Below, in pieces: positions 6,408 through 62,036 of a stretch of 64,000 nucleotides of DNA. Below the pieces are notes generated by a model. The model saw only the letters and a list, made by a program, of their open reading frames with translations. It made no database searches and had not been told where the DNA came from. Origin of the DNA: Closterium sp. NIES-65 (taxonomy: Eukaryota > Streptophyta > Zygnematophyceae > Desmidiales > Closteriaceae); assembly GCA_948144175.1 (NCBI GenBank), contig CANXME010002591.1:1484501-1548500 (forward strand), written 5' to 3'. A program made the position numbers and the translations under genes. Numbering within the stretch: the stretch's first letter is position 1; every line of letters begins with the position of its first letter.

Positions 6408-9400
6408 ATGATATCAAGGCGACTCGAAAGTAGCCAGCGCCACGTGGTCATGCTCGCCGTCTCCTTCGTACTAGTGGTGAGCGCACATTCCGTTCGAGGC
6501 GTGCACTCAAGTACACGTGCACACTGGCGCCGAATAGAACAGTTGAGAGACACATATGGGGACGCACAGCTCTGAGAGACACAGCGTTTCGTTTCGACCA
6601 ATAAGACACGGCCGCCCCGCACTCGATCGCCTGCATGAATGGCGGCGGTGCATCCCATCCGTGCTGTGTGCAGAGTGGCAATACCTCTGAGATAAGATAA
6701 CACACATGCCTGGGACGCAGCCTGTTTTTGAGTCGACTCAAAAACAGGCGATACCTCTGAGATAACACACGCGCCTGGGACGCAGTCACGAGAGCATCTA
6801 CATAGCTCAGCCCAGCCCCAGCGATATGCAACAGACTCCAAACCAAACCCTGAAGCCAACCTCCCTGAAGCCAACCTCCCTGAAGCCAACCTCCCTGAAG
6901 CCAACCTCCCCCCTCCCCTGGGATGGTTGGAAGTTTGAGATGGCGGTGGTTCGTGAGGGCACTGCACACCACCGTTAGAGGTGGTCCGCGTTACGAGTCG
7001 TCAGATTCAATTTAGACGGCAAGCCGACGAGCTGACGAGCCGCAAAGCTCTCTTGGCTCAGCCACCTCGTGCTCACTCCCACCCACCCACCCATGCTCAC
7101 TCCCACCCACCCACCCATGCTACGACTTTTGAGGCGCCCCAAAAGTCCTTCCGCCCACCCATCTTCACTCCCATCCTCTCATTTGCAAACCCCAATCGAA
7201 GCATTCCGTTCCGCCCCCTTCCCTTCTCCACTTCTTCCGTTCCACCCATCCCCCCCCGCCTCCCTCTGTGTCCCCCCTGGCGCAGCTCCTCTCTCCGTTG
7301 TGTGCATCAGCGTGTTTTTTGAGAATTATAAAAATCACCCTGCAATTCCACCCCTCCTCCCCTCCTCCGTCTGTGACCCCCCTGGCGCAGCTCCTCTCTC
7401 CGCTGCGTGCATCAGCGTCCCCTCCAAGGCCATTTCTGGATTTCACATTCTCTGAGGCAAACTGTGGCACCTGGGCGGATGACTACTCTGCCCTGCACTC
7501 CCGCATCCGCGAAGCTGCCCGCGCCCACGCCAGCACCCTCGCTCAGACTGCTGCTGCCGCTGCTGTAGCTGCTGCTGCTGCGAACGCACCACCATTGCCG
7601 CCGCTGCCACCACTGTCGCCATCACCCCCACCACCGTCACCACCACCACCATCACCCCCACCACCGTCACCCCCACCACCGTCACCACCACCACCATCAC
7701 CCCCACCACCACAACCCCTACTCTCCCCTCTTCCTCCCCTACCTTCCGCTCCTCAATCCCCCCCACCTCCGTCCCCTCCTCCTCCATCTCCCCCTCCTCC
7801 GTCCCCTCCTCCTCCATCCCCCCCTCCTCCATCCCCCCCTCATCCACCCCCACCCCCACCATCCCCCCCACCCCCAGCCGAATACCCGCAGCCTCGGAGG
7901 GACCCTACCATTCGCTTCCTCACATACGAGTGGCTGGATCAACCAGGTGGGCTAGGGGACTATCTCACAGGGCTGGCTACCACCTTCGTATGCGCCATGC
8001 TCACAAACCGCGCCTTCATAGTGAAGCATGCTCTCCTGCCGCTTGCATTCGAGCCGAACCTCGTTGATTGGTCCTTCTCACCAGAAATTCCTTTGGAGCC
8101 GGCTCGGAAAATGTCTATTGAGGAGGTGATGCAGGGATGGAGTGAGGGAGGAGGAGGAGGAGGAGGAGGAGGAGGAGGAGGAGGAGGAGGAGGAGGAGGA
8201 GGAGGAGGAGGAGGAGGAGGAGGAGGAGGAGGAGGAGGAGGAGGAGGAGGAGGAGAAGGGGCGGGAGGGCGAGGGGGGGTAGTGCAGGATGGGGAGGTTG
8301 TGGTGCTGGATCTGAAAAATAAATTGGTTGAGCCGGAGGATTTTTTCGGGCAGTTGGATAAGGCAATGAACGTGCGCGTGTCATGGAACAGAGGGCTGCT
8401 TATTCATTGGCTCGTGCAGGTGGGTGAAACGGTTCTACTGAACCAGGAAGAAACTCTTGTGTTCTCCCAAACGTTGAATAGAGTTGAGGAAGGCGAGAGG
8501 AAGGGGAGAGGAAGGGGAGGGGAGAGGAGGGGCATGAAAATAGGACCGCCTCGAGCCGCAACGAGCAGAGAGGTCGACGAGGTTAGCCAGCAGTTTAGCC
8601 GGCTCGTGGCTCGTGGCTCGTGGCTCGTCACATTGAGGCCAGCTGGGCAAGCCGGCCTATGCTGGTCTACGAGCCGAGAAGATCCAGCTCGTCACGTGAT
8701 GTGATGGTTTCGTTACAAGAGGTGCGAGTGAAGGTGTGAGTGAGCTGTCGGCCTGCTCGACTAGTCTATTTTTTAGTCGACTCGCTGGACTAGTCAGCCA
8801 AAAGGTCGCCGGCTTTGCTCGCCCGATGAGCTAACGAGCCAAGCCGAGGAGCCGAGCCGCCTGCTTGGATTTCCGCTCATGCCACAGGAGAGGACGAGAG
8901 GAAGACTGTTGAGTCGACTCGAACGTCACCTGAGGAGATGGAGAGAGAATAACAGAAGCAGTGGATAGAATGAGCGGTGGAGAAGATAGGGGAAGAAAGG
9001 TATGGTAGAAGTGGCACACACAGCCCGAGAGCCATGGGGATGCAGAGTAGCAACTTACTCGAATGAGCACGAGCTCAGAGTAGCAGCACACTCGCTCTTG
9101 TCATGCTCATGTGCTGTTCACGTAACACTTGGGTGGGTGGGCACAGGCGGAGGGCAAAAAGTGGAGTGAGCGGCTCAAGGACATGGGCATGCGGCCTCCC
9201 TACAGCTTTGGCTGCATCCTGCGCTTCCTTCTCAAGTACGCCCCCACTTGGAAACATGTTGATGCGCCTGAAAAGGCTGCATCTTTCTCTCTCTTTCTTT
9301 TCAAGTGCGCTCCCATGGATACCCGCGTGACATGCATATGAGATTTCGAGATGTGCCTGAAATATCACAAGGGGGCGCCATTCTATGTCCACCACACTTT

Positions 9401-11284
9401 CACTGTACTCCGCATTTCCCCTCAAAGGGTGCTGAACTCACCATTCATCTAAGCCATATACCACCTTCGTCTTGAGGTTTCGAGGCAACTCATGCCCTTG
9501 CCTTGCATTCCTGTCCCCCTTCCGGGCCCTTGAGCCTCGCGTTTCTCATCTGGGCCCAACACACCTGTCCTTAGCCGGCCCCTTTGACCCGCAACCATAT
9601 GTCTCATCAGCTGTCCACCACACCAAGCAACACTCTTTTGAGACGTCTCAAAGGCCGACCCCTTAGGCCCGCAACCATATGTCACGTCAACTCTCCACAC
9701 CAAGAAACACTCTACCAATTTGCCTGTGTGTCCATCCCATCCCAGTCTCCTATAACCCCTCTCCCCTGCCCCTTCACGAAGCCCCCTCCTCTCCCCCCCC
9801 GCCCTCCTTTGCGTTTCCCCATCCACCCCCACCCCACTCTACTCCTCTGCCACCACCAGGCCACGGCCGGAGATTCTGTCAAAAGCTGAAGCCACGTACC
9901 ACCACCTCTTCTCCCCTATTTCCTCCTCCTCCTCCCCTCCCCCCGCCCTCCTCCAAGCCCCAAATCACCTGAGCGCTGGTCAATCAGGGGCCTCCGGCTC
10001 CTGGCACAATAGGGTGGTGGTTATTGGGATTCACGTCAGGGTGGAGGATAGTTTCGTGTGGGCGGGCAAGAGAGGGTTTGGAGATCCCAAGGTTCTGAAT
10101 GAGACGGAGAAGGCTGAGCTCATGGCATTGGCGGACGATTATATTGCTTGTGCCCAGGTGAATGTGCAGATAGGGAAATGTGGAGTTATAGTGGGGAGAT
10201 TTTGTGGGGAGTTGCAGTTTAATATAGTCGAGGCTGGATAGTCGACAGTGGGTTTGGGCATTATGATAGTTTTGTGTTTCGCGAGTATTTCTCAGTCGTA
10301 GGGTTATAAATATGATTGCATCTAGCCCTTGTCTTCTCATACCCTTCACGCAAAAATGCATTTTCCTCTCTTTTCTCCATGCCCCTTCTTTTCCCGTGCC
10401 CCTTCTTTCCCCGTGCCCCTTCTTTTCCTATGCCCCTTCTTTCCCCGTGCCCCTTCTTTCCCCGTGCCCCTTCTTTCCCCGTGCCCCTTTGTTCCTCATG
10501 CCTCCATTCTCATTTCCTGGCCTCTGATTTCTGAGCCCCTCCCATGCCCATTTCCCTTATAGAAACTCGAAGCATGGTGGATGCCCCCTCCTATCATAGT
10601 TAAATGGCTAATTGTTAGCAACTCTCAGGATCTCAAGACAGGTTTAAGGCTCAAATATCCAGACAAGGTGTGTGCTTTCTCCTTGAGGCGGCGCAAGGGA
10701 CTGCCCGCCGTCACATGCTCCGCGCTGTGCAGTGTGCATGCATTAGCAGCCTGTGCAGTCTATCCTGCCCGCTGTCACATTGGCTTTCAATGCTTGTAAT
10801 GCACCTACACGCACATACATGCACACACTCATTCATACAACCGTCAACCTCCCCTCCACCCCCCTTTCACAGACGCACAGCCTCTATAGCACCCCCTCTC
10901 AACTCCCTCAGCCCCTCTCTCACATGCTTGTGCTTGGGCACGCCAATATCATCATCCCTACTTGGTTGCGTTGCGTCACAGGTGGTGGTGTCAGACATCC
11001 TCCCAATGCATATCAACAACCTCATGCTCAATGATGCTGAGCCCTCGTCGCCACCACCTTCGCCACAAGCTGCTCGCGATAAAGAAGCAGCTATATATAC
11101 CGGCGTTCTTACGGATTGGCTCCTTTTGGCATCTTCTGATGTGTTCGTTATATCCCAGTCTGGATATTCCACCACAGCAACATTCTTCTCGTATCGCCTA
11201 GGTACTGTCCATACCTCAAAAATCTGCCGCCCAGAGCAACCGGTTAACCTACAGACTGTAACACGCCTTACGAGTGGAATATGA
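6408..11284 (+). CDS. Fucosyltransferase-superfamily protein with proline-rich stalk
   Basis: Six exons in phase: 6408-6476, 7391-8419, 9147-9235, 9860-10157, 10563-10667, 10982-11284, about 630 residues. Exon 1 encodes only MISRRLESSQRHVVMLAVSFVLV, a signal peptide or anchor, and joins in frame to exon 2 at 7391. Then come an Ala-rich coil, an extensin-like SPPPP-repeat stalk (about 7590-7880), and PGGLGDYLTGLATTFVCAMLTNRAF followed by an NLVDWSF box typical of this fucosyltransferase group. Next is a run of 36 Gly, then FGCILRFLLKPRPEI, VVIGIHVRVED (the I-H-x-R donor-binding motif) and a C-terminal VFVISQSGYSTTATFFS segment matching the late donor-binding region. Family knowledge suggests fucosyl transfer in the Golgi or at the surface; the acceptor is unknown. 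The exon 2 acceptor region and the exon 3 donor region are each tandemly duplicated. Exon 1 is the least certain part. Confidence 0.72.
6678..6785. repeat. Palindrome at junction of a tandem duplication (locus 1)
   Basis: A perfect 28-bp palindrome at 6721-6748 (core TTTTGAGTCGACTCAAAA) sits exactly between two direct copies. Left copy: 6678-6720, containing atacctctgagataa and gcctgggacgcag. Right copy: 6748-6785. It lies in intron 1 of the 6408 gene. Confidence 0.9.
7070..7165. repeat. Palindrome locus 2 (GGCGCC centre)
   Basis: 7124-7147 is GACTTTTGAGGCGCC plus complement with one mismatched pair. Copies of a ctcactcccacccaccc unit lie on the left (7070-7118) and a diverged copy on the right. 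It lies in intron 1 of the 6408 gene. Confidence 0.75.
7237..7418 (+). repeat. Tandem duplication of the exon 2 acceptor with degenerate palindrome
   Basis: Two copies of about 75 bp (7237-7313 and 7345-7418) each contain ctggcgcag followed by ctcctctctccg. Only the second acceptor (exon start 7391) is in frame with exon 1. Between them, 7315-7335 is a T-rich/A-rich imperfect palindrome resembling a decayed form of the recurrent element. Confidence 0.7.
8147..8254 (+). repeat. (GGA)36 coding microsatellite, polyglycine
   Basis: Thirty-six consecutive GGA codons inside exon 2 of the 6408 gene, in the same frame as the flanking conserved segments. They place 36 Gly between the first and second conserved blocks of the enzyme. 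Perfect repetition implies recent slippage and likely length polymorphism. Confidence 0.95.
8755..8955. repeat. Two decayed palindrome loci in intron 2 (loci 3 and 4)
   Basis: Around 8771-8783 a TTTTTAGTCGACTC core lies between the 12-bp direct repeats 8755-8766 and 8784-8795 (GCTNGACTAGTC). At 8909-8923 a GTTGAGTCGACTCGAAC core lies between the similar segments 8886-8908 and 8933-8955. Both are diverged from the consensus. Confidence 0.6.
9577..9712. repeat. Palindrome at junction of a tandem duplication (locus 5, GACGTC centre)
   Basis: TTTGAGACGTCTCAAA at 9637-9652 separates a 59-bp left copy (9577-9635) from a 60-bp right copy (9653-9712). Both contain cgcaaccatatgtc and end in acactc. 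It lies in intron 3 of the 6408 gene. Confidence 0.9.
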
Positions 11285-12760
11285 TGGTTTGGTTTGGTGC
11301 TCCTCCGCTTGTTCCATGATGATATGATATACCAATGCCTGCTGGTTCTGCTCATAATAGAAACATGATGTGATACAACAACAGCACCATTGGTTCGTTT
11401 GGCTCTGCTGGCTGGTTGGAGACCTGCAATGCTAACTCCACTTCTTGGTCCATTGGCTATAGAAAATCTTGTGGTACTAGAGCATCACATGTAGTAGAGG
11501 ATGCTTCAAATTCAGCAGTGGGAGCTTCGGGTTATACTTGTGCTGGTCTCTTCAGAATGTATAGTAGAATTGGTCATATGGAGAAAAGGATGCTTCAGGA
11601 GTGTGGCCTCTAGTTATACATGACTCTATTGTAACTGAAAAATATTCTTACAACCATCGTGTAGTTTTGAGGTGTCACAGGTGCTGCCAAAAGTAGCCCC
11701 ATAATCGTCACCTTGATCGTATTTTGTTTTGAAAGTTGGCAGGCTCCCCTCCCCAGTCAACCAGCCAAATTTCTGACCGGAATGAAATAGTGGCGGTATT
11801 TCTAGCTCGGAACCAGGTCGGATTCAGAAGCGGTGCAAGTACGCTTAGTAAAAGCAACATATAGTAAAAGCTAAACCTGGTGTTACGTTCCGGGGAACTA
11901 GCCTCGTGACTTGTCCGGCACCATTCGTGGTCAGCATCAGTTCAGTGCTCTTGCCCTTATCAAGGAACGATAAGTACAGCACACAGAACACAGTCAGCCT
12001 CAACGACCTTCAAACATGTGGTCAGGGCTTGCCCTCGAAACGAGACTCCCCTCCTAGACCCAGTTCAGCCTCATGGGGGAGCACTTGACTTCACTCCACC
12101 TTTCAAGGTTCGGCATCGCCAAATCTCGTGAACGGCTTGGATGTATCGTTTCGCTTTTTACCAATTGAGATTTTTTCGTGCAGGTCAGCCAACTTGTACA
12201 ACATTTTTCAAGGGTCACTACTACTCCCCTCCCCGAGAAACAGAGATGAAATGCACAGCATATACAGTACTAAAAACCTGTTTACACTAAACAGCCCGGT
12301 TACGTCCTAAACTGCAGTCTTTTATTTCTCCAGTCACCGACCTCCCAGGCCTGATAGCAGTCACCTCAAGATTGCCCCCTACTCCTTTCTGCGGTAAAGC
12401 TCTTTGAAGTTTATTGGGACTTGATGAGTTACTACATGCGCCAAAATCACCGCCAAACCGAATCCCTCCTATAATATACCATCAGGTGTTGATGCTCTGC
12501 TGCCCTGCCGAGCAAATCGATGATTCGAACTTCTCAAGTCTGGTTGGGCGAACTTTGTCTACTGGACTCCCTGGTCTGATGAAGTTGTTGGTCCTTCCGC
12601 CATTTGCGTGCTAGGTTTTTACCTACGACTGTCCCGCCGATCCGTTGTTATTTCGGTGCCCTAAACTGGCTGCGATGTTTTTGTACGGGAGAAAACAATG
12701 AGTGGACTCCCATCATAATTCGTGCTTTTCCTTCGCGACAACGCACCCGTACGATCCGCC
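11285..12760. other. Intergenic region
   Basis: No gene recognised. 12050-12110 shares words with the window start at 80-160. Otherwise this is unremarkable moderate-GC sequence holding a 3' UTR and the promoter of the gene starting at 12761. Confidence 0.4.
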
Positions 12761-14827: not shown

Positions 14828-14920
<93 letters not shown>

Positions 14921-15778
14921 GCACGCCGCTCCTACCTACCTAGTACCAACCAACCAACCAACCACTGTGCGAGCCCAACCCTGAGCTTTCACCAGCCCTG
15001 CGCTGCTGGCCTGGCAGCCCTACGCCGCTGGCATGCTCCTCTCTTGAAGTGTTCGTTGTTCTCCCTTTCTATCGCGCACTCACACACTCTTTCTTTTCTG
15101 TTCTCTTACTCGTTCCCGTTCCCGCTGTGTCCTTGTCCCCTCTCGTTGCCCGCGACACCACCATGATCAGGCAGTGGAGGGAGCGCGCATGGTAGTGGCA
15201 GCAGGTCACACGTACCCTGTGGTGCCAGGAGCGCTGGTCAACGGAACACGCGCCAACTCTGGCTTTTTAGGCTAGCCTCTGAAGTCTCCGCTTTTGTGTC
15301 CCTTTCGCTCCGCACCACCACCACCACCATGAGCAGGCAGTGGAGGGAGCGCGCATGGTGGTATCAGGCCACACATGCCCCGTGGTGCCAGAAGCTCTCG
15401 TCAACGGCACGCACGTCAATTCCGTCTCAGGCCTGGCTGAGCTCGTGACTGAGGCAACGGCGCAAGCAATCAACGCCTCTGTTGCTGCGGCTGTCGCTGC
15501 TGGGAATGGCACGGACGGCAACAGCACGTTGGGCGGGGCCGCGGTGTTTCCGGTGGTGACGAATGATGCTGCGCTGGCGGCTGTTGCGGGGGATGTGAAG
15601 GAGGGGGAGAATACGACCCTGGCGAGATGGAATGTGAGTTGTGGGGAGTGAAGACTTGTGTGCATGCGTGCGTGTGAGAGTGTGTGAGTGTGAGTGTGTG
15701 TGTGTGTAGTGAGTATGAGTGTGTTTGTGTGTGTGTGTGAGTGTGAGTGTGAGTGTGTGTGGTTCAGTGTGAGTATGA

Positions 15779-15843
<65 letters not shown>

Positions 15844-18800
15844 GCGCACGCACGCGTGCATGCGGGTGATCTGTGCAAGTGCGATGTGTCAATGCGGATC
15901 AGGCACAATATCCGAGAGTGCGTACGGTACAATCTCAATAGTAGTGCACACGGTATCGCTCTCCATCCATCAGCCATCCACTCGCCCAGACACCTGCACT
16001 GCCCATGCGTGTGCGTGCACTCTCACGCTCTCTCACCTCACGCACACACCCAACGCTTTCAGACGCACACGCTCACCCAGTTCTGCACGCTCCCACGCAC
16101 ACTCTCGTGCCCTTCGCTCGCACACGCACATGCCCGGCCGCACAATCACAGGGCTACGAGTGCAGGCGAGCATAGCGCACATGCGGATGTTTTGAGTCGA
16201 CTCAAAACACGGCTCATAACACGCACAATCACAGGGCCACGAGTGCAGGGCGAGCATAGCGCATATGCAAATTTACCTCAACCACACAGTCTCTGCGCCG
16301 TATTGTTGCCGGCGCTGACATGCTGCCAGCCAAACATGCCCTTACTCTCTCCCCCATTGCCCCACAACCACAACCACCACCGCAGGGCTACGAGTGCAGG
16401 GCGAGCATAGCGGACATGAAGAGGTACCTCAACTACACAGTGCGGGCGGACTGCCCGCACGACTGGTTCTTCGTGCAGCGCCTCATGTTCATCAAGGACT
16501 GCTTCTCGCTGCCGCGCCGCCGCTGCTTCACCATCACGCCCCGCGCCGTGCAGGAGGTGCGTGCGTGCCTCTGCCTCTGCCTCTGCCTCTGCCTCTGCCG
16601 CTGCCTCTGCCTCTGCCGCTGCCTCTGCCTCTGCCTCTGCCTCTGCCTCTGCCGCTGCCTCTGCCTCTGCCTCTGCCTCTGCCGCTGCCTCTGCCTCTGC
16701 CTCTGCCTCTGCGTCTGCCTCTGCCTCTGCCTCTGCCTCTGCCTCTGCGTCTGCCTCTGCCTCTGCCGCTGCCTCTGCCTCTGCCTCTGCCTCTGCCGCT
16801 GCCTCTGCCTCTGCCTCTGCGTCTGCGTCTGCCTCTGCCACTGCCTCTGCCTCTGCCTCTGCCTCTGCCTCTGCCTCTGCCTCTGCCTCTGCCTCTGCCG
16901 CTGCCTCTGCCTCTGCCTCTGCCTCTGCCGCTGACTCTGCCTCTGCCTCTGCCTCTGCCTCTGCCTCTGCCGCTGCCTCTGCCTCTGCCTCTGCGTCTGC
17001 GTCTGCGTGGCCTGGCTTCCATTCCATCGTAAGTGTCGCTCGTGCTTTTCCTGCTGTTTGTGAAATGTGCCTGCAATCTCTGTTGTGCCTGCAATCTCTG
17101 TTGTGCCTGCAATCTCTGTTGTGCCTGCAATCTCTGTTGTGCCTGCAATCTCTGTTGTGCCTGCAATCTCTGTTGTGCCTGCAATCTCTGTTGTGCCTGC
17201 AATCTCTGTTGTGCCTGCAATCTCTGTTGTGCCTGCAATCTCTGTTGTGCCTGCAATCTCTGTTGTGCCTGCAATCTCTGTTGTGCCTGCAATCTCTGTT
17301 GTGCCTGCAATCTCTGTTGTGCCTGCAATCTCTGTTGTGCCTGCAATCTCTGTTGTGCCTGCAATCTCTGTTGTGCCTGCAATCTCTGTTGTGCCTGCAA
17401 TCTCTGTTGTGCCTGCAATCTCTGTTGTGCCTGCAATCTCTGTTGTGCCTGCAATCTCTGTTGTGCCTGCAATCTCTGTTGTGCCTGCAATCTCTGTTGT
17501 GCCTGCAATCTCTGTTGTGCCTGCAATCTCTGTTGTGCCTGCAATCTCTGTTGTGCCTGCAATCTCTGTTGTGCCTGCAATCTCTGTTGTGCCTGCAATC
17601 TCTGTTGTGCCTGCAATCTCTGTTGTGCCTGCAATCTCTGTTGTGCCTGCAATCTCTGTTGTGCCTGCAATCTCTGTTGTGCCTGCAATCTCTGTTGTGC
17701 CTGCAATCTCTGTTGTGCCTGCAATCTCTGTTGTGCCTGCAATCTCTGTTGTGCCTGCAATCTCTGTTGTGCCTGCAATCTCTGTTGTGCCTGCAATCTC
17801 TGTTGTGCCTGCAATCTCTGTTGTGCCTGCAATCTCTGTTGTGCCTGCAATCTCTGTTGTGCCTGCAATCTCTGTTGTGCCTGCAATCTCTGTTGTGCCT
17901 GCAATCTCTGTTGTGCCTGCAATCTCTGTTGTGCCTGCAATCTCTGTTGTGCCTGCAATCTCTGTTGTGCCTGCAATCTCTGTTGTGCCTGCAATCTCTG
18001 TTGTGCCTGCAATCTCTGTTGTGCCTGCAATCTCTGTTGTGCCTGCAATCTCTGTTGTGCCTGCAATCTCTGTTGTGCCTGCAATCTCTGTTGTGCCTGC
18101 AATCTCTGTTGTGCCTGCAATCTCTGTTGTGCCTGCAATCTCTGTTGTGCCTGCAATCTCTGTTGTGCCTGCAATCTCTGTTGTGCCTGCAATCTCTGTT
18201 GTGCCTGCAATCTCTGTTGTGCCTGCAATCTCTGTTGTGCCTGCAATCTCTGTTGTGCCTGCAATCTCTGTTGTGCCTGCAATCTCTGTTGTGCCTGCAA
18301 TCTCTGTTGTGCCTGCAATCTCTGTTGTGCCTGCAATCTCTGTTGTGCCTGCAATCTCTGTTGTGCCTGCAATCTCTGTTGTGCCTGCAATCTCTGTTGT
18401 GCCTGCAATCTCTGTTGTGCCTGCAATCTCTGTTGTGCCTGCGATCTCTGTTGTGCCTGCAATCTCTGTTGTGCCTGCAATCTCTGTTGTGCCTGCAATC
18501 TCTGTTGCGTTTTGAGTCGACTCAAAACACACATGTGCCTGCAATCTCTGTTGCGTTTTGAGTCGACTCAAAACACACATGTGCCTGCAATCTCTGTTGC
18601 GTTTTGAGTCGACTCAAAACACACATGTGCCTGCAATCTCTGTTGCGTTTTGAGTCGACTCAAAACACACATGTGCCTGCAATCTCTGTTGCGTTTTGAG
18701 TCGACTCAAAACACACATGTGCCTGCAATCTCTGTTGCGTTTTGAGTCGACTCAAAACACACATGTGCCTGCAATCTCTGTTGCGTTTTGAGTCGACTCA

Positions 18801-21800
18801 AAACACACATGTGCCTGCAATCTCTGTTGCGTTTTGAGTCGACTCAAAACACACATGTGCCTGCAATCTCTGTTGCGTTTTGAGTCGACTCAAAACACAC
18901 ATGTGCCTGCAATCTCTGTTGCCACGTATTTCCCCGCTCTCCTCTCTCCCTTGTCTCCCGAATCCCCGTTACCCACACTCCCCACTCTCTCAACGCAGCC
19001 CGTCGCACAGCCCAAGCTGTTCTCCTCCCCTGGTCCCTGGCCCATCTCCCCTCTCCCGTCTCCCCATTCCCCACCTCCCACACCCCCCTCCCCAACCCCC
19101 CCACTGCCCATTGCAGCCCATAGCGCGGCCCAAGTCGCTGTTCTCGCAGGGGGCACTGATGGACTCGAACGTGCGGTGGGACCTGCACCAGTGCAAGTCG
19201 TTTGGGTGCCTCAACTCGCGCGTGGAGGGTGATTGCCGCAACTGCTTCAACATGACCCTCGAGAGCAACCGCTGGAAGGCGCCCTTCCGCGGCTCCATCA
19301 CCATGGCTGCTGTCATCGCCATGAAGCCCGGATCGCTCAGGTGGGTGGCAGGTGTGGTGGGGGAAGGGGCAAGGGCAAGGGGGGGTGAAATGCAGGAGAG
19401 TATGCTGGGGTCCTCCTGGGGGCGCCCTTCCGCGGCTCCATCACCATGGCCGCTGTCATTGCCATGAAGCCCGGATCGCTCAGGTGGGGTGAGGGAAGGG
19501 GGGGAGAGGCAAGGGCAAGGGGGGGTGAAATTAAGGGGGAGTATCATGGGGTCCTCCTGGGGGCTGTTGGGGCTGCCTGCGATGCTCCATCACCATGGCC
19601 GCTGTCATCGCCATGATGCCCGGGACCCTCAGGTGGGTTGAGGGACGGAGGGAGGTGGGAGGGGGACGTGAAGGATGATGGGTGGATGAGAGGCGGTGTG
19701 GGAAAGGAGGAAGGGAGGGAGGGGCGGATGGTTTTGGGACGCCTGGAGAGCTTTGCTGTGGGAGTGTTTGTGGTCCTGTTTCCATCAGGCCAAGCCTTCT
19801 CCCAAGCACTTACCATGCAAAGTCGCTCACATCTCTCCACCCCTTTCTCCCTCTGCTCCCCTCTCTTCCTCCTCTCCCTGCCCCAACCCACAACCCCTCC
19901 GTCTCCCTCTACCTTCCCCACTTCCTCCCCCCAGCCGTATCTTCTCCTTCAACCCATCTCGTCGCCCCCATCCCCATCTCTTCCCCCTAACCACGCCCCC
20001 CCCCTCCCCCCAACCATCTGCCCCCCAACCCATCTCCATCTCTCCCCTCCCCATGTCCAGGCTGGGGCTGGATGTGGGGGGCGGCACGGGCAGCTTTGCG
20101 GCGCACATGGCACGGTACGGTGTGACAGTGATGACCACCGCATACAACGTGGAGACCACCGCCAATCGCACGGGCGGCCTGCCCTACATGGAGGCCATTG
20201 CGCTCAGGGGCCTCATCCCCCTGCACTCGCCGCACAAGGTGCATGGGCAGTGGTGTGGTGTGGTGTGGTGTGGTGTGCTGTGCTGTGCTGTGCTGTGCTG
20301 TGGTGTGCTGTGCTGTGCATGGGGTGTGGATCTTTGTGGATGTGGTTTGGCGCAGGGAGAGGGGAGGGGGGGAGTTGCGGTGTGGCCATCGCATTGAGGG
20401 GCCCCATCCCCCCTGCACTCGCTGCACAAGGTGCACGCCGTGCTGTGCATGTGCGGTTTCTAATCATTCCCAAATAACACTCGCGGCAAAGGTGGGGGGG
20501 ATTATGGGGATGGTGGGGGTTTGGGGGGCTATGATGGCTCCTCCCCTCCTTGGAGTGCAGCTGTGCAGGTTAGCTGCTCCTGTCAGGTTTCAATGCCTTG
20601 ACTTGTGTGTTATGTTCCAATGCCCAGCTTGCCACGCTATGTCTGAAGGCACACGTATGGCAAACTTAACAACAGCAACTGGTCAAACACACATGCACGC
20701 CTCTCATCCCATCTCCCTAACCTTACCAATTCCTCCTCTAACCCGCATGTGCGCAGGCGCGGTTGCCGCTGTACGATGCGATGTTGGACATAGTGCACAC
20801 GGTGAACTGAACAGCAGCAAGTGCACGTACCGGTAGGTTGTCGCCGCCATCCCATCTCCCCCCCCCCCCCCCCCCCCCCTCCCTGTCCCCCCCCCCACCC
20901 CGCTCCCCCCTCCCCAATGTGCCCAGGGGCGGTTGCCGCTGTACGATGGGACGTTGGACATAGTGCACACGGTGAACAGCGTCAAGTACCTGCCCATGCT
21001 CGAGTTCGAGGAGATGCTCTTCGAGTGGGACCGCGTGCTCAGAGGAGGTCCGTCCTGCTCTTGCTCTTGCTCCTGCTCTTGCTCTTGCTCTTGCTCTTGC
21101 TTCTGCTCTTGCTCATGCTCTTGCTTCTGCTCTTGCTCTTGCTCTTGCTCTTGCTCCTGCTCTTGCTCTTGCTCCTGCTCCTGCTCCTGCTGCTCTTGCT
21201 CCTGCTCCTGCTCCTGCTCCTGCTCTTGCTCTTGCTCCTGCTCTTGCTCATACTCCTGCTCTTGCTCCTGCTCTTGCTCATACTCCTGCTCTTGCTCCTG
21301 CTCTTGCTCATACTCCTGCTCTTGCTCCTGCTCTTGCTCATACTCCTGCTCTTGCTCCTGCTCTTGCTCATACTCCTGCTCTTGCTCTTGCTCTTGCTCA
21401 TGCTCTTGCTTCTGCTCTTGCTCTTGCTCTTGCTCTTGCTCTTGCTCCTGCTCTTGCTCTTGCTCTTGCTCTTGCTCCTGCTCTTGCTCTTGCTCCTGCT
21501 CCTGCTCCTGCTGCTCTTGCTCCTGCTCCTGCTCCTGCTCCTGCTCTTGCTCTTGCTCTTGCTCCTGCTCCTGCTCCTGCTCCTGCTCTTGCTCCTGCTC
21601 CTGCTCTTGCTCATACTCCTGCTCTTGCTCTTGCTCTTGCTCATGCTCTTGCTTCTGCTCTTGCTCTTGCTCTTGCTCTTGCTCTTGCTCCTGCTCTTGC
21701 TCTTGCTCCTGCTCCTGCTCCTGCTGCTCTTGCTCCTGCTCCTGCTCCTGCTCTTGCTCTTGCTCTTGCTCTTGCTCCTGCTCCTGCTCCTGCTCCTGCT

Positions 21801-24145: not shown

Positions 24146-25604
24146 CCTGCCTGGCCACCTGGCCACCTGGCTGATGCCTGGCAACTGGCACTTGACCTGG
24201 CTGTTTGTGGAGTGTGTATCTGTAGATATCGTAGATGCATCCATCCATCCATCCATCCATCCAGCTATCCATCCAGTGGTGCTGCTGTGTTGTAGCGGCG
24301 CTTCGAATGTTGTTTTGGTTCGGAGCTCTGTCCATGCCTTGCCGCTGTGCTTGTGGTAACGTACCGATTATCCATGCTGTGTGGTACTCGCATCGCATGG
24401 GCCGTACCGTACCGTACCACAATAGAAGATGTGTGTGTAGGGTATACTGCATTACCGGTACCACAACAAATGTGCTGTGTGGGCAAGAGGCATTTTGCTA
24501 GTGAGTGTTTTTTTATTTAGATGATGTCTGCCTAACCGTTTGTGTAGTAATTCCAGTACATGGTGATTCCTGAAGCAACGTGGAAATGACAACCAACCAG
24601 AGAGCCTGCATGCATGCATAGATCTGTGCAGGGAATCCTTTTCTGGACAGGCCACATGCATGCACCTGGTTGCAGTCACTTATGCAGCAAAATGGGTCAG
24701 AGACAGGAACTGAAGCATATGCACTGGTGTGCAGAGTACTAGAAGCACATGGAACCATGGTGAAGTGTGGGAAGGGAACCCAACTGCTGCTCTTTTGATG
24801 AGAATCAATTCAGATGACACTGACTAAGACCGGTATGGGTGAATGCTGCTCTCTCTTCCTCTCTCTAGGGTCTACGGCCCGTCCGTGGCGAAAGCTATCC
24901 AGCCAGCTGTGTATTGCAGGGTAGCTAATAACCTACCGGCAGTAACACTACTAGCAAACCACACAGCATGCAGCAGTTATGTTCCAACTTTGGCATCTCC
25001 TCGCTCACACCTCACGCACACACACAAGCGGTGTGGCACAGGGCGGGGTGTGCTGGGTGGGAGCAGATGAAGCCGACTTGATATGCAAGTTGCAACCATT
25101 CCAACAAGCAATGCAGCAGGGAGGAAGCACGATAAAGCGGGAGGGAGGGAGAGAGCGTGAGAGAGAAAAAGAATGCTGATTGCAGCAGCACTGATGACTT
25201 AGAATGCAGGGTGCTTCAGTTAGTCACCCTTCTCCCACCTCTCCCTCTTTTCCCACCTCGCCCTCTGCTCCCTCTTCTCCTCCATCTTCCATCCAAGTGA
25301 GCAACACTCACACCGACCCATTCCCCCCAACACCATGGGTGCTTCTCATCTCATGCCATGCACGCACAAAGCATGCGATCACTCCAACCGCTACATCATC
25401 CCACGACCAAATATTCAAGCCACCTCATGTTTTGAACTCATTTCTCAGCACATGCCCCCTCCTCTCCTCCCTTTTGAGGCGCCTCAAAAGTCGCCTCAAC
25501 TTTTGAAGCGCCTCAAAAGCCACCTCATGTTTTGATCTCATTTCTCAGCACATGCCCCCTCCTCTCCTCCCCCTCTCCTTCCCACCCCTTTTCACCTCCC
25601 ATTC
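24146..25604. other. Tail-to-tail intergenic region
   Basis: Lies between the convergent 3' ends of the methyltransferase-like and kinase genes. It has a short (ATCC)n run near 24238-24262 and palindrome locus 8 at its right end. No gene recognised. Confidence 0.5.
25420..25570. repeat. Double palindrome between 51-bp duplicates (locus 8)
   Basis: A perfect CTTTTGAGGCGCCTCAAAAG at 25471-25490 and a one-mismatch copy at 25500-25519 lie between two 51-bp direct copies (25420-25470 and 25520-25570) differing at about one base. It lies just downstream of the kinase stop codon, probably in its 3' UTR. Confidence 0.93.
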
Positions 25605-26735: not shown

Positions 26736-26779
<44 letters not shown>

Positions 26780-27798
26780 AATGGTGCTGTTGTTGGTGTT
26801 GGTGATGGTGTTGGTGTTGGTGGGAGGAAGGAGAGGGGAAGGTTCGGCGAGGGGATAAGAGCTTGGGTGAAGCTGGGCACCCTACCCCTTGCCCCCCTCC
26901 TTGCCCCCCTCCCGCCCCTCCTTGTCCTCCTCTCCCCACCGCTCCTCCAGCAGCATCTGTGAAGCTGTGCTGATCGCCAGAGGGAGGATAGCGCGACTTT
27001 TGAGACATCTCAAGAACCGCCCCTCCTTGTCCTCCTCTCCCCACCGCTCCTCCAGCAGCATCTGTGATGTTGTGCTGATCGCCGGAGGGAGGAGAGCGTG
27101 ACACACCTTCACCTAGGTTCACGCCAGCATTGTCAAACATGGCAGCACCGCCCTCAACAGCAGCACCAGCAGCACCAGCAGCACCGGTTGCACCAGAAGC
27201 ACCGGAAGCAGCGGCAGCATCACTATTTGTTGTTATGGAATTCCTTCCTGCTATGCTGCTGCCACTGCCACCGCTGCCGCTGCTGCTAAAATTGCCGCTG
27301 CCACTGCCAACCCTGCTGCTGCTACTGCTGTTGCGACTGCTACTGGTGCTACCGCTGTTGCCCCTACTGCACATGTCTCTGCCAGTGCCGCTCTCTCGTG
27401 ACGTCCCATCCCTGCCACCACCCAGCACGTCTCCACTACTGCTGCTGCTGCTGCCACCACTTCGTAATCCCCCACTGGCAGCACCATCAGCAGCGGCAGC
27501 AGCAGCAGAGGAACCGCTTTCAGCAGCGCCAGCATCACCCGAGCAGGACAAAACTGACGCTCTCCCTGTGCCAACACCTACCCCGGCAGTAGCAACAGCA
27601 GCACTGGCACCAGCACCAGCACCTGTACCCACCCGCCTAGCTTCCACCATGCCGCCCCTAGGGTTGCCCTGCCCACCTGCCCCTGCTGCAATGCCCAAAG
27701 AAGGGCCCCCTCTGCTTCGCTGTCCCGCAATAGTACTCGTGCTGCCCATTGCACCGCTGCCCACACTGCTGCTGCTGATGCTGCTGCTGGTTACAGCA

Positions 27799-27831
<33 letters not shown>

Positions 27832-30800
27832 CCACCACCACCACCACCACTTTCCACGATCCCGTGCCGTCTCTCTTCCAGCCGCCCTTCCTCTCCAGCC
27901 CTCTCTCGTTCCAGTAAACCCCTCCCATCCACCCCTCCTCCTCCCCCTACCATCCCTCTGCCCCTGCCACCCATCCGCCCCCCTGCCTTGCCACCTCTCC
28001 CACCCCCAACCCCGGACACCCCAAGCACCACACCACCCCCTGCACTCGCCCCACCAGTGACAGTCAGCCCACCACTTAACCCACCGACTACCCCACTACT
28101 AGCCCTTCTTAGAGGGTTCATTGAAGAAGACAAAGACGGACCTACTCTTTCCCCTCCTCCTGTATGCATCCCCCCTCCCCCAACCCCTCCCCCAACATAC
28201 CCTCTCCCCCCACCTGCCGCCCCTCCCCCACCTATCCGCCCCCCTCTTCCACCCACACGCTCCTCCTCCATCCTGTGCGTCCCCCCCACATGCGTCCCCC
28301 CACCATGCGCGCCCCCCCCAAGTGTCCCCCCTGCATGAACCCCTCCTCCGTGCTGCCCCTTTCCAATCGCTATCCTTTCACTGGAATGTCTTTGCTGCCC
28401 CTGCCCTCTGCCCTCCTCCAAGCTCCCAGCCCCGCTGTCTCTCTCCCTCTGCCCCAAGTCACCAGCCCCACCGTACCTGCCTTCCTCTCTGCTCCCACCA
28501 CCACCCACTCCCCCAAGCCCCTCGCCTCCCTCTCCTGAACCCTCTGCCTCTCCAGCAGCAGCAACAGAAGCAGCAGCAGCAGCAGCAGATCCAGAAGCAG
28601 AGGCAGACGCAGAGGCAGCAGTACCAGCAGCAGAACCAGCAGCATATCTCGAAACCGGTCTTCTCGGCGGCGAAACAAGCCTAGCAGCCGCACCCCCGCC
28701 TGGCTGCCCAGGCGAGCGCACAGAGCAGGGGGAGAGCGGAGAGCTCCCCAGATACGACCCCCCAATGCCACTAGCAAGCGCGCTCCCTCCCCGCCTACCC
28801 ACTCCCCCCACTCCTCCCCCTCCAGGTCTCGTCTCGGCTGTGCGTGGCCGCTGCACGGGCGCACACACGCGCCTGCCTGCTCGGGACGACCCGATGCTGC
28901 TGATGTGCTGGTATGTGGGGCGCCGGCGCGGCTGTGACGAGGACGAGGAGGACGACCCGCCTTCGTCCTGCTCTGCATCCCCTGCTGCTGCTGCTGCTGC
29001 TGCTGCACTGTCCTGTGGTGAGCCTGCCGCCCCTGTTGCTGCCGCTGCTGCTGCTGCTGCTGCTGTTGGAGGTGCTGCTGCTGTTGCTGATGCGTTGGGT
29101 GATGCAGAGTCAGGAGAAGTAGCACTGCTGGAGCTGCCTCGTCTCTCCTCACTAACACTGCCCCGAGTGCCAGCCCGAGCGTCAGCACCTGCTGCCTCCC
29201 TGCTTCTCTCATCCCCCCGACTCCAAACCCCAACAACACCACCACCAGCAGCAGCACCAGCACCATCAGCAGCACCAGCTGCACCAGCTGCTGCCACCCT
29301 TGTGCTCGCGCTTGCCTCAGCATCCCCACTCCTGGTTTCCCTTCCACTCCTGTCAACCCCGGCCCTCTCCCCAGCCATGTCCACAGCACCCAATCCCCCT
29401 CTGCCTGATCGTCCCCCCGACCTGGGTGTGCCACAGCCTAGGCCCTCTGCTTCTGCTGCCAACACTGCTGCACTGCCTGCTCGAGCCTCCATCGGCCCCG
29501 CATTCAACGCAGCCGCAGCAGCAGAAGAAGAAGCAGAAGAGGCAGCGGTACTGGTTCCACGTGGGGAGACGTGAGGTGCATGTGCATGCACCACCGGTCC
29601 AGTATCAGTGGCAACAGCATTGCTGCGACCACCTGCCGACGTTGCTGCTGCTGCTGCTCCTGCGGTTAAACCACCACCGCCGGTGCCACTGACCCCTCTC
29701 GCCCGCCCCGCTCGGCTTCCACCTGCCACTCCTCTCCTCCCGCCCACCCTCCTCCTCCTCCCACTACCCGTCCTCTCATCCGCATCCTCCATCCCATCAT
29801 CCTCCCCCCCATCCTCACCCTCTACCGCCCCCCCACCCCACGCACCATCCCTTCCCCTACCACGCCCTTCCCCATCCGCACTCATCCCCCCCTCACCCGC
29901 CGCGTCCTCCCCTTCCTCCGCCCAATCATCCCCGTCCTCCCGCTCACCCTCCCGATCCTCTGCCTTCCCCTCCTCTGCATGCATATCAGCACCGCCACCA
30001 ATATCATCCCTATCAGGCCCTCTCCAGGCGGCAGACATGAGAGCACTGTCAATTCCGCTCTTCGACCGCAGAGGCAGCACCCGCCTTTTCAATGCCATCT
30101 CTCCCCGCGGCTGCGCTCTCCTATACTTGCTTGCGCTTGAACCTCCACCAACAGCACCACCACCAGCACCACCGGCACCGCCGCCACCACCAGCAGCAGC
30201 CGCATCAGCGGCACCAGCTGTGGCTGTAGCAGCAGCGCCTGCTGCTGCCGCTACACCCACCGCCCCGTCCGCGTCAAACCCATCACCAGCAGAGTCAGCA
30301 AGGGCAGCAGCGGCGGCGGCGGCAGCAGCAGCAGAGACGGAGGGAGAGAAAAGCGAGCCGGCGCGGGCAAGAGCGAGCTTGCAGGGAGCAGGGGAGAGCG
30401 AGGAGGATGAGAAGGAGGCGGAGGAGGAGGAGGACGACGACGACGAAGCACCACCGCCACCACCGGCAGTCGAAACAGCAGCAGCGGCAGCAAGCCAGCG
30501 GTGGGAGAGGACGTGGTGCAGGGAGGGACGGTGCTGGGGGTCTAGGGAGCACATGCGCTGTATGAGGTCCTTGGCTGCTGGCGAGATGAGCTGCCACTGC
30601 CGTGACGTGAAGTCCAGGTACCCCTGGCACACGCTCTCATACGTCTCCTCAACCGTCTCGCCCCAGAAGGGTAGGATGCCTGGCCAGGGAGGGGGGACAG
30701 GGGGGAACGCGGGGGTGGGCAGGGGAGAGTGTTGTTGAGATGTCTCAAAAGAAGGGTATGATGCCTGGCCAGGGAGGGGAAGCAGAGGAGGGACGGGGGG

Positions 30801-31638
30801 TTGTGCAGAGGAAAGGAAAGGTGTAAGACGTGTCGAGAGAAGGGTGGGTTGCCTGGCCAGGGAGGGGAAGCAGAATGGGGGACTAGAGGGGGTTGGGCCG
30901 ACGAGAGGCGTGCAAGGAGGGAGGCGAGCGGGCATGGAGCGAGAGGGCAGGGAGCTTCACAGCGGTGCGAGGTAGGAGGGAAAGAGAGCATCCCATCCCA
31001 TCCCACAGCTTGCTGTTGCTGTTGCTGTTGCTGCTGTTCCGTTCCCACAGAGCCTTGCTGCCGACCCTTGGGAGCCTCGGTTGGGGGACCTGTGGCACGT
31101 CCTGGAGGACGGCCAGGGCCGAGGCTGGAGCTGGGAGGAGTAAAAGGGGGGGCGGCCTAGAGCCCTGTGAGTGATAAGGGCCGACCTGGGTTGCCCAGGG
31201 GCTAGGCTAGGCCAAGACGAGACCAGAGACGGGATGCTGGCGGCTGGGGTGGGGCCTTGGAATGGGGCGGCTGGGTCACTTGCAGATTGGGGGTAGGAAA
31301 CCAGTGTAGGCTCTAGGCTTGAATGTTCACTGCCTACCTTGCCTATATGCCTAGGTTTGCTTGCTTGTTAGACCCACCTCTGCCATGCCTGTACCTAAAA
31401 AAATATCAATGAAGGACCGCTTGAGAGAACGGAAGCGCCCACCTGAGAGCATGATGTAGAGCAAGACTCCTAAGCTCCACACATCCGCGGGGAAGGAGTA
31501 GGCCATGCCCTGCACGACCTCCGGCGCCATGTAGAACGACGACCCCGCCAGCCCCACGGCGCGCGCGCCCGGGGGCAGGTGCACGGCGAGGCCAAAGTCG
31601 GCGAGCTTGGGGTTGAGCGCGGAGGCGTCGGCGAGCAG

Positions 31639-31673
<35 letters not shown>

Positions 31674-35565: not shown

Positions 35566-38213
35566 TCACACGGCACCACCGTTGCAGTGCAGCCCTTGCA
35601 TGTCTAGTCTAAGCAGCTCCGCATCCACCTCCCGCACCATGTCCGCCAGCTGCTGCACCGTGTCACTCAGCTGCCCCAGCGCCCGCCGCACCCGCACTGC
35701 CTGATGCCCGTCCAGCCCTCGCTTCTGTACAGACACAGCAGCAGCAGCAGCAGTACCAGAGCCAGAAGCAGCGCAAGTTGCAGCAGCGCTAGTTGCAGCA
35801 GCGCCAGCAGCAGTGGCTCCGTCAGAGGGTTTGCGGCCAATGCTGTATGGATCGGGTTTCGCAGGGCTTTGCTTGTCGCTGCTCGTGCTGCTGCTGGTGG
35901 GGGTGCTGGTGCTGTCCGCATCAGCTATGTGCTCCCAGCGCGACTGCAGGTGAGCGGCAGAGTCCAGCAGCAGTGGCAGCTCGTGATGCTGTAATGCATC
36001 TGTGGTGCACAAGAATATGGGGATGGTTCGGTGGGGGAGATGGAGGGAAGGGTGGATGGGGTGATGGTTGCATGGGTGTATGGGTGTATGGGGTGATGAG
36101 TGCATGGGTGCATGGGGTGCATGGGTGCATATGGATGAGCAGGAAGGACAATAAGGGGGCGTTACATGGGGCCAGGCAGGTGAGTGAGACAGGCAGGTGT
36201 GTGCACGTGCGTGGGGCAAACTCCCCTCCGCTCCAACTCCCCCACAACTCACCAAGTTCCCCCTTGAGCTGCCGCTCAGCCAGAGAGAGCGTGTGCCGGC
36301 CCCAACAAGCCCGGGCGCGGGCCTTCTCAACGCGGTGCATGAGGCGCTGGTTCACGCGCAGGCGCTCCTGCACGCGCGCTGCTAGCCCCGCACACACGTC
36401 CCCCTCCACCTGCGCTATTCGCTGCAGCCGCTCTGCCCGCGCCTGCTGCTGCTCCACCTGCTGCTGCGCCCACTGCTCGTGCGCCCGCACCTCCACGTAT
36501 GCCTGCCCAGGAGGGGAGGGACGGGGGGAGGGGAGAAAAGAATGGGGGCAATCTTGAGTCAATTCAAACACCTGCAGCTGCACCCACTGCTCGTGCGCCC
36601 GCACCTCCACGTATGCCTGTGGGGGAGGTGGGGGGGAGAGAAGGAGGGGAGGAAAGAATGAGTTTAGGAGTTTGGAGAGAACGGGCGGAGACCCGAGTGA
36701 TATGGGTGTGGGGGGGCGGAGTTAACGGGGATTTGTGAAGAGTGAAGGTGCACAAGCACATGGTGGCACTGGGGCACATCGATTTTTGAGTCGACTCAAA
36801 ACTCGAAGCACATGGTGGCACTGGGGCACATACGGCATGAGCGTAGGCGACGTGAGAGGCATGCAGCGCCTTGGCACAGGAGTGCAGCATGGCCTTGCCC
36901 TCCATTGATGATGCCGCTGCCTTGCGCACCGCTGCTGGCACCTGCTGTAGCACCTGCATGTGCCCCATGCCATGCCCATGCCATGCCATGCCATGCCATG
37001 CCCATGCCCATGCCATGCCATGCCATGCCCATGCCATGCCCATGCCCATGCCCATGCCATGCCATGCCACCCACATGCATGTGACATGCGGCACATGCGC
37101 ATTTACACAAGTGTGTGAACCCATGTCCGTCCATGCACATCCATGAAGCCGGCATGCGCATTGATTGAAAATGAGGCAGAGCAAGCAGTGGTCAAGGACA
37201 ACACAAATGGAACGAGGGGACAGAGAGGACAGAGGGGACAGAGAGGGGAGAAAGGAAGCATATAAGACAGTGGCAATGAATGAAAGAAAGAAAGAAAGAA
37301 ACAAAGAAAGGAACACAAAAGCAGTGGCACACGCGTGCGCACATACACAACTGTCTCCCTCCTTCCCCCTTTTCCCCCCCTTCCCCTTCCACACCCTCAT
37401 ACCATCCCTCACCCTCACCCTCATTGTCTGAGCACATTTCCTTCCTCACTTCCAGCTGTTCTTGCAGTTCCCGCATGGACACAAGGTGACTTTTAAGTCG
37501 ACTCAAAAGTCACCTCTGTCCTTCCAGCTCTCGAATGGACAAAAGACCCGCCCGCACCCCTCACTTCCACCCACTCCTCACCTGCGAGGCAGAAGAGGTG
37601 GGACCTCGTAGCACCCTCTCACTCACTCCCCGCCCTGCCATCTCCTCCTCTTCCTCCACACTCCTCCCCTCGCCTTCCTCCTCCTCCTCTCCCGCTCCCT
37701 CTACCCCTTCCACCAGCGCTATACCCGGCCGCCGCACTCTCAGCACAGCACACCCCCCTCGTGCGTCTACTGTCACCACCACCCGTTCCTCCCCATCCCC
37801 GCCCCTCTCTGCTGCTCCTGAGAGGCCCCTACTGCTGCGGGATAGCACTGCTAGGCCGATACAGGGGACCCCGGCAGCAGCTGTGGCAGAAGGAGGAGCA
37901 GGAGGAGAAGAGGCGGAAGACGGGGGAAGAGAAGAGGAGGGGCGCGAAGAGGAGAAGCGGGAAGAGGACGACAAAGACGAGGAAGAGGTGGAAGAGGAAG
38001 AGGAGGAGGAGATGCTGTAGACTTCTACTGAAGGGAGGGCCTTGTGGCGGGCGGAGAGGGCGTCGTGGTGATCTGAGAAGGGCAGCCAGCGCAGCAGCAC
38101 TGCATCCACGCCCCATGCGTGCGCACACAGCACAAAGTCAGGCACGCGCGCATCCACATGCAGGTCTATGCGCGGGAGATGATGCAGCGGCGAAGGGGAT
38201 GCTACCGATGCAC

Positions 38214-54191: not shown

Positions 54192-54324
54192 TGTCAAACA
54201 TTATATATGTTATGCTTGTGTAGGCTACAGTGGGTTAGCCTATAGGGGGTACACAATTCTAGGGTTTCCTACTTGTACTCATTTTCACTGCTAGTTCATC
54301 CATTCCTGTTCGCTTATTCTCACA
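54192..54324 (+). repeat. Left LTR (133 bp) of the copia element
   Basis: Begins TGTCAAACATTATATATG and ends CTTATTCTCACA. Identical to 61074-61206. Very short for an LTR; it contains TATATAT near the start and a telo-box (reverse orientation) at 54259-54267. Confidence 0.97.
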
Positions 54325-55500: not shown

Positions 55501-55629
55501 CCACTGGTGAGCTCTTGCCCTGCTAGCACGCTGCGCGTCGCCTGCTTGCCTGCCTGCCTGCCTTTTGGCTTGCCTGGCTGCCTGCCTCCCTGCTGCTAGT
55601 CCTGCTCCTGCTTCTACTTGCGGAGCCAA

Positions 55630-61985: not shown

Positions 61986-62036
61986 GTAATCTAACTACTT
62001 CCTTAGTTCGTCAAGCTTGGGCTGTGTCAGTCTGAA

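Follow-up and report, generated by a model that had tools for sequence, protein, structure and literature searches.

A short palindrome recurs between long local duplications of variable length in the genome of Closterium sp. NIES-65

The DNA considered here is a 64-kb window (64,000 nucleotides, 58.7% G+C) from the assembly of the desmid alga Closterium sp. NIES-65, lying on contig CANXME010002591.1, and all positions below are counted within it. Plus-strand exons were mapped between 6339 and 24091 by tblastn with 22 proteins, all from Closterium strains, which had been retrieved with the joined exon pieces of the window as protein query; the minus-strand frames downstream of these exons resemble a kinase gene and another gene. 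Among the matches listed for the kinase open frame (31351-32157, minus strand) many were from Closterium, and the top match was from a flowering plant. A protein search with region 85-1700 of the long kinase frame gave no match at E 0.001, a result in which low complexity perhaps swamped the search. From 53 kb onward, the frames are those of long terminal repeat (LTR) retrotransposons. The subject of this work is a short palindrome with the core TTTTGAG that recurs across the genic part of the window, mostly between two direct copies of local DNA.

The consensus TTTTGAGNCGNCTCAAAA was matched at no more than three mismatches at 22 positions in the window against 0.15 expected, and none of 100 shuffles reached this number. 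Nine of the 22 matches belong to a single array, two three-mismatch matches (8092 and 9257) are outside the finding, and no match occurs in the window beyond 37508. The palindrome had been noticed at 14 positions in a first-pass annotation made from the letters of the DNA; 12 of these fit the consensus within three mismatches (8909 at exactly three), and 8771 and 36554 do not. Position 36554 nevertheless keeps its place as a decayed palindrome between copies of 90/92 bp, while the 12/12-bp duplication noted near 8771 and 8909 found no support, since neither palindrome has significant flanking copies (scores 16 and 18). Similarity searches elsewhere gave little: a plasmid search (801 bp) returned no match, Rfam at gathering thresholds matched no family, and the longer form GACTTTTGAGNNNNCTCAAAAGTC had no exact match in viral or prokaryote contigs. 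The palindrome was found in 11 stretches of viral contigs, which were taken as chance occurrences (best flanking score 22; 10 of the 11 with less than 50% G+C). A 26-bp near-palindrome at 34878-34903, GTCCGTTGTCGTATACGACGACGGAC, is unrelated to this family.

Flanking copies were sought by local alignment of 130 bp on each side, a position being accepted at a score of at least 30 with the copies within 15 bp of the palindrome on both sides. Nine of 15 positions passed (6735, 9645, 16199, 18519, 27007, 30742, 36562, 36793 and 37500), against 37 of 4000 random control positions with little tandem repeat, controls that are unlike the fully masked array site 18519 and 36562, which is 35% masked on the left. 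Positions 25481 and 25510 failed because each has its twin palindrome intervening, 7136 failed by 3 bp, and 8781, 8916 and the last array unit, 18887, failed as well. The recurrent palindrome between local duplications was thereby confirmed, as was the claim that the palindrome is shared and the duplicated DNA is not, the sequence of the copies differing from site to site. Across sites the duplications measure from 26 to about 143 bp and the inserts 17-62 bp (Table 1); the spacers at 7314-7345 and 15265-15287 are decayed cases beyond those listed in the first pass. Taken alone, the decayed palindromes are not significant (p 0.144 at 7325, 0.07 at 15275 and 0.055 at 27006). All this rests on one 64-kb window with about 14 events, and several of the tests were devised after the data had been seen.

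Table 1 Duplications with their palindromes, and retrotransposon frames, in the 64-kb window
Feature	Position	Direct copies	Palindrome or insert	Setting
Duplication	6677..6785	6677-6720 and 6747-6785 (44/39 bp)	CCTGTTTTTGAGTCGACTCAAAAACAGG, 6721-6748, centre 6735	Intron interior
Duplication	7083..7176	7083-7108 and 7151-7176 (26/26 bp), weak, C-rich	7127-7144, GCGC centre	
Duplication	7240..7418	7240-7313 and 7346-7418 (74/73 bp)	Spacer 7314-7345 with decayed palindrome TTTTGAGAATTATAAAAA	Copies span 3' splice site of next exon
Duplication	9574..9713	9574-9636 and 9654-9713 (63/60 bp)	9636-9653, ACGT centre	Intron interior, between mapped exons 9144-9245 and 9858-10157
Duplication	15122..15427	15122-15264 and 15288-15427 (143/140 bp; 104/101 under stricter scoring)	23-bp spacer 15265-15287, TTTTAGGCTAGCCTCTGAAGTCT, read as very decayed palindrome	Copies span 3' splice site
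Duplication	16139..16268	16139-16184 and 16222-16268 (46/47 bp)	16188-16209, TCGA	Each copy holds a dead duplicate of the intron-exon border at exon 16386
Array	18510..18895	Nine 46-bp units	TCGA palindrome in each unit	Intron interior, at end of 18-bp minisatellite
Duplication	25417..25571	25417-25471 and 25517-25571 (55/55 bp)	25472-25489 and 25501-25518, GCGC, joined by partial unit	
Duplication	26912..27102	26912-26997 and 27017-27102 (86/86 bp, 94% identical)	26998-27015, ACAT centre, one CpG-type change from ACGT	In frame within 1783-codon minus-strand open frame
Duplication	30665..30815	30665-30729 and 30750-30815 (65/66 bp)	30733-30750	Third copy 30838-30874 with possible decayed palindrome
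Duplication	36455..36660	36455-36544 and 36569-36660 (90/92 bp)	Decayed, 36552-36569	
Duplication	36754..36831	36754-36779 and 36806-36831 (26/26 bp, 0 differences)	Insert 36780-36805	Youngest case
Duplication	37456..37545	37456-37485 and 37516-37545 (30/30 bp)	32-bp palindrome 37484-37515, AGGTGACTTTTAAGTCGACTCAAAAGTCACCT	
Copia-type open polyprotein frame (+)	55600-60864			
Fragments of further reverse transcriptase and RNase H frames (-)	61176-61994, 53511-54200			

The reverse approach, a scan for duplications blind to the palindrome and passed through complexity filters, found 13 local two-copy duplications in the window, ten of them in 1-50 kb. In that region the palindrome was present in all six duplications with a spacer of at most 45 bp (decayed in one), and, very decayed, in the single duplication whose spacer measures 62 bp. 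The remaining three of the 13 lie in the retrotransposon-rich 53-58 kb, and none has the palindrome. The complexity filters removed the copies at 30742, 36562, 36793 and 37500 and a duplication at 19272-19564. A looser scan gave 32 rows, 20 of them before 50 kb and 12 past 54 kb. The palindrome was present in 12 of the former, among them three rows that come from the array and two in which it is decayed, and in none of the latter. Near a retrotransposon piece, a 141-bp direct repeat (53142-53282 and 53376-53516, 97% identical) encloses a palindrome-free spacer of 93 bp. The nine-unit array was found as first described; ahead of it, at 17064-18515, stand about 80 head-to-tail 18-bp units TGTTGTGCCTGCAATCTC, a minisatellite that ends in the array, and the palindrome may have landed in this minisatellite and then been amplified along with it.

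In a centre-anchored alignment of 13 palindromes (the array represented by one), the core TTTTGAG hardly varies. The second pair from the centre is variable (T-A in six, A-T in four, G-C in three) and is paired in all 13. The four central bases are fully self-complementary in 10 of the 13, the other three (ACAT, ATGT and TCAA) being one CpG-type change away, and the centre has no unpaired loop. Covariation between the arms was supported by the cells with two-sided changes (23 vs 13.0) and by a covariation score of 0.256 vs 0.132, neither value being reached in 500 shuffles. The outermost bases are the least conserved, and both ends are variable around a centre that is conserved. If a single strand had folded back, it would need a loop of about three or more bases, with no requirement for self-complementarity, and the loop-free centre therefore speaks against the hairpin suggested in the first-pass annotation. 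Two identical ends that meet head to head, by contrast, would need a self-complementary tip, and this is the main argument for the mechanism preferred below. On both strands, the outer arm AGGTGAC of the 32-bp palindrome at 37484-37515 reads like a 5' splice site, AG|GTGAC, and such inserts might serve as splice donors.

The events differ in age. The copies at 36754-36831 are identical over 26 bases and those at 37456-37545 differ at 6 of 30, and over 11 sites copy divergence increases with both palindrome-core mismatches (Spearman 0.65, p 0.03) and arm-pairing mismatches (Spearman 0.66, p 0.03), where the centre of 15265-15287 was set by eye and 7136, the array and two weak sites were left out. 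Palindrome and copies have thus aged together. Arm mismatches, at 12 of 90 inner pairs in 10 events, are similar in rate to the copy differences (mean about 9%), as expected if the arms are identical at birth and decay neutrally afterwards. An assembly artefact was considered and rejected, because the core recurs in proteins predicted from the assemblies of several strains and the copies diverge roughly with palindrome decay. In a post hoc count, the eighth base inside the copy was a pyrimidine at 20 of the 22 outer ends of the 11 sites.

Evidence on the order of events came from predicted proteins of other strains, at loci outside the window, the codons of the translated palindrome being inferred: FESTQK corresponds to a TCGA centre, FETSQ to ACGT and FENSQK to AATT. 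The strict pattern occurs eight times in the 22 Closterium proteins (21,504 residues) and once in 120 listed kinases (42,447 residues), in the flowering-plant protein P0038; the approximately 30 Closterium proteins among these kinases have none. Four of the eight translated palindromes, two in P0130 and one each in P0122 and P0126, have strong direct repeats on their flanks (scores 74-139). In these repeat-rich proteins, random positions score at least 45 in 11% of 1881 cases, and the count of flanking repeats in the predicted proteins is by itself modest evidence. P0121, P0123 and P0124 are apparently one locus in related strains.

The comparison of orthologs is more telling. P0130 (Naga37s-1) reads RRRLLVEPAGAAEGLQAAA-LETSQK-...-RRRLLVEAGGTVEGLQAAA-FETSQT-...-RRRLLVDPAGTVEGLQTAV, that is, three copies and two palindromes. 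All four orthologs compared with it (P0128 from NIES-53, P0134 from Yama58-4, P0138 from NIES-64 and P0129 from NIES-67; 79-94% identical) have a single copy and no ETSQ, P0129 having other extra residues just before the site. P0122 carries ARLPFFDGSSGIIHSVN, then VTFENSQKS, then the ARLPFFDGSSGIIHSVN stretch again; of six further proteins aligned to P0122, three (P0127, P0132 and P0131) show a single copy in place of the doubled one, P0124 and P0126 hold extra copies of their own near FESTQK, and P0140 is without the exon. Empty alleles with one copy and no palindrome, which the first-pass annotation had proposed to look for, thus exist at the protein level at these other loci. The single-copy, palindrome-free orthologs of P0130 indicate that palindrome and duplication arose together at that coding site, and in the predicted proteins the insertion and the duplication appear as a single difference from the relatives. 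In P0121-P0124 (Closterium NIES-65, NIES-64 and Naga37s-1) several repeats of one exon head, GYTCDA..., alternate with stretches that resemble intron tails, and duplication of intron-exon borders seems to be frequent in this gene family. The C-terminal part of P0121-P0123 consists of tandem units of about 50 residues with FEKSQK in each, possibly an amplified decayed palindrome in a predicted coding region.

Within the window, a strong upstream copy of the intron tail and exon head (scores 79-102) was found at four of the 15 exons placed with proteins (7370, 15334, 16386 and 20924), and a fifth upstream score above 40 (50, at 23885) is confined to the intron; control positions score at least 40 in 7.6% of 1500. 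Downstream copies that include the exon tail occur at 19341 (score 160) and 20244 (69), a geometry scored without a control, and three other downstream scores of 50-100 are intron repeats. The spacers at 7370 and 15334 hold a decayed palindrome and the copies at 16386 include the clear palindrome 16199, while no palindrome was found at 20924 or at the two 5' border cases. On the minus strand, the copies at 30742 (a kinase exon) and 36562 appear, read by eye, to span a 3' splice site, and no ortholog was found to place these exons. The idea that insertion is aimed at 3' splice sites was weakened, since intron interiors (6735, 9645 and 18519) and 5' borders (19341 and 20244) are affected too. 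Survival under selection explains the cases at exon borders as well, an event in an exon being tolerated where one intact border is left, and the predicted exon-head repeats of P0121-P0124 suggest similar border survival in other strains.

Comparison with known systems gave only partial likenesses. Bacterial REP palindromes mobilised by RAYT proteins, a system with a Y1 HUH nuclease, are 20-40 bp long and present in many copies, like the Closterium palindrome; to our knowledge, they are prokaryotic and lack a long target duplication. In CRISPR spacer acquisition a short DNA is inserted and tens of bases of target are duplicated, as in Closterium, with a fixed repeat and a varied insert, where Closterium has the reverse, a fixed insert and a varied target. 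Cut-and-paste transposons of the DDE type and their miniature derivatives (MITEs) differ in that the Closterium duplication is neither short nor fixed in length and that the inserts at the measured sites are the palindrome plus a few bases, with no internal sequence between repeats. Target-primed insertion of LINE or PLE elements would leave a constant 3' end and a variable 5' truncation, whereas both Closterium ends vary about the centre. Introners, according to the part of the source available (PMC9860276), are also inserted repeatedly in genes and interact with splice sites, but duplicate 3-9 bp of target against 26 to about 143 bp here; the Closterium insert is, moreover, too short for an intron, and one insertion is in frame in a predicted protein.

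The duplication itself has precedents. Insertions of IS1549 and IS1634 produce direct repeats of 8-514 bp, and the accessible part of the report (PMC2266710) states that a mechanistic model had yet to be proposed. Long variable target duplications are therefore already known, which qualifies the first-pass remark that the target duplications of known cut-and-paste or LTR elements measure a few bases. The long and variable target duplication is shared with these elements of the bacterial IS1634 family, which are approximately 1.5-2 kb long and carry a transposase, unlike the largely palindromic Closterium insert; Pfam on 18 open reading frames of the window found LTR-retrotransposon domains only. 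Small tandem duplications formed by fill-in and end joining where a break leaves 3' overhangs, of 43 bases in one design, likewise place tens of bases beside the original, and the portion of that study available (PMC8355091) describes no constant junction palindrome, whereas the Closterium junctions share a near-invariant core. With staggered-break repair and IS1634-type insertion the Closterium process thus has only the duplication in common, and it fails the tested features of cut-and-paste transposons, introners and target-primed retroelements. Among the open-access papers listed on long duplications, palindromes, Closterium transposons, replitrons, long-repeat insertion sequences and introners, often a part of those that matched, nothing alike was described, judged by titles and the starts of abstracts, subscription papers being mostly outside this coverage. 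The shortest core string appeared in three papers whose titles point to other subjects, and the available text of the Closterium genome-size paper (PMC10407611) does not contain "palindrom".

An unrecognised process therefore appears to insert the palindrome and duplicate the target together, and the first-pass proposal of an unrecognised element or break-repair process gains support from the single-copy, palindrome-free orthologs. The mechanism that we tentatively prefer, at somewhat short of an even chance, is a single event per site whose scar is the local duplication with the palindrome between the copies. The chromosome strands would be cut at points tens of bases apart, and both 3' ends would gain the same short tail, which ends in ...TTTTGAG and a handful of variable bases. 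The tail would come from one specific source, a template or else the termini of some unseen mobile element. Identical tails could pair only if their last four bases were self-complementary (TCGA, GCGC, ACGT or AATT), meeting head to head; fill-in synthesis would then complete the palindrome and, by copying the long overhang on each side, produce the duplication. Events in exons would survive mainly where the duplicated stretch holds a splice site, leaving one intact border. The long variable duplication, the covarying insert and the near-constant core on which this scheme builds are seen directly in the window, and joint origin is seen at the protein level elsewhere.

The outer arms hint at a possible source of the tails. 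Upstream of TTTTGAG they lean to AGG[CT]GAC, with GAC in 6 of 26 arms vs approximately 1% in flanks and AGGTGAC matched at 5 or more of 7 bases in 4 of 26 vs 1.7%, and a TTTTGAGGCGAC unit would end in AGGCGAC. In 28 arms tested, the mean match was 4.07 of 11 vs 2.67, and the 12-base unit TTTTGAGNCGAC was matched at 8 and 9 of 11 bases in two arms (16198 right and 25480 right). VTFENSQKS in P0122 is the translation expected of an outer arm GTGAC, the sole independent hint of the unit. We regard as doubtful the bolder version in which a telomerase-like or other templated activity in Closterium nuclei would add the 12-base TTTTGAGNCGAC to long-staggered 3' ends, the identical tails being sealed at the tip to leave palindrome and long duplication, and would thereby have repeatedly reshaped intron-exon borders.

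Several observations weigh against the preferred mechanism or limit its reach. In the filtered scan, the palindrome is absent from three duplications with 84-110-bp spacers in 1-50 kb; 19272-19564 is a tandem duplication with neither spacer nor palindrome, and eight of the 20 rows that the looser scan gave before 50 kb are palindrome-free, mostly of low complexity. Four of the eight translated palindromes (in P0121, P0123, P0124 and P0140) are without a strong flanking repeat (scores 24-34), and the empty sites are those of predicted proteins rather than DNA, outside the window. Of the five pairing measures, two fell short of significance, namely the pairs with two-sided changes (8 vs 6.7; 130 of 500 shuffles) and further pair types (22 vs 19.0; 83 of 500). 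The figure for the 12-base unit is descriptive, the idea having been drawn from the same arms that were tested. The arms at 6735 copy each other perfectly but depart from the family consensus, a combination that one template leaves unexplained; outer arms vary by site (CCTGT, CGA, GT) beyond the prediction of a single template, and the inserts at 16199, 18519 and 36562 are asymmetric. We infer the break geometry, the tailing and the annealing, and neither an enzyme nor a template or donor was found. The capture of palindromic DNA, or a tiny mobile element, accounts for most of the facts about equally well.

A mobile palindromic micro-element of 18-32 bp, whose transposase or integrase would cut the target strands far apart so that gap repair leaves long variable duplications, is possible though not probable. 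The core and its variants are common to several strains, insertion and duplication are found at the P0130 site where the orthologs are single-copy, and a bacterial precedent is available in the 8-514-bp variable duplications of IS1549/IS1634, in the accessible part of PMC2266710. Both ends of such an element would, however, overlap in one 18-32-bp helix, which seems awkward for a two-end synapse; the least conserved bases are the outermost, the opposite of what is expected for transposon tips, and the only Pfam domains in the 18 window frames are those of LTR retrotransposons. Conservation that is lower at the tips than inside also disfavours a footprint, in which an inverted-repeat element of larger size would have made a long duplication on insertion and later been lost by cleavage in its repeats, the ends being joined at a self-complementary four-base overhang. 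This would account for the palindromic centre and the matching outer arms, as well as for the two palindromes with a partial unit joining them at 25472-25518, but a longer element stands between the copies in none of 13 window parts, and we consider it unlikely.

Slightly less likely still is ordinary staggered-break repair, as at Cas9-nickase breaks, in which fill-in would make the tandem duplications and an abundant palindromic fragment would be caught at the junction. The 3'-overhang breaks described in the available part of PMC8355091 give duplications of similar length, and palindrome-free duplications exist nearby; the presence of the palindrome in six of six filtered-scan duplications with spacers of at most 45 bp in 1-50 kb nonetheless looks causal rather than like an occasional filler. 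A pre-existing palindrome that breaks or stalls replication, with its flank duplicated later, is very improbable: it is contradicted at two protein loci, whose orthologs have neither the palindrome nor the second copy. Palindromes can be fragile, which speaks for this order of events.

If the joint insertion and duplication holds, it would be a kind of eukaryotic insertion for which no described counterpart was found, with a tiny, near-constant insert and a long, variable target duplication. The repair of long-staggered breaks would become testable in a lineage close to land plants, and the process would provide a route to duplicated exon borders and to in-frame protein repeats. The palindrome would also be a readable mark with which events could be counted genome-wide and between strains, the divergence of the copies serving as a rough clock.

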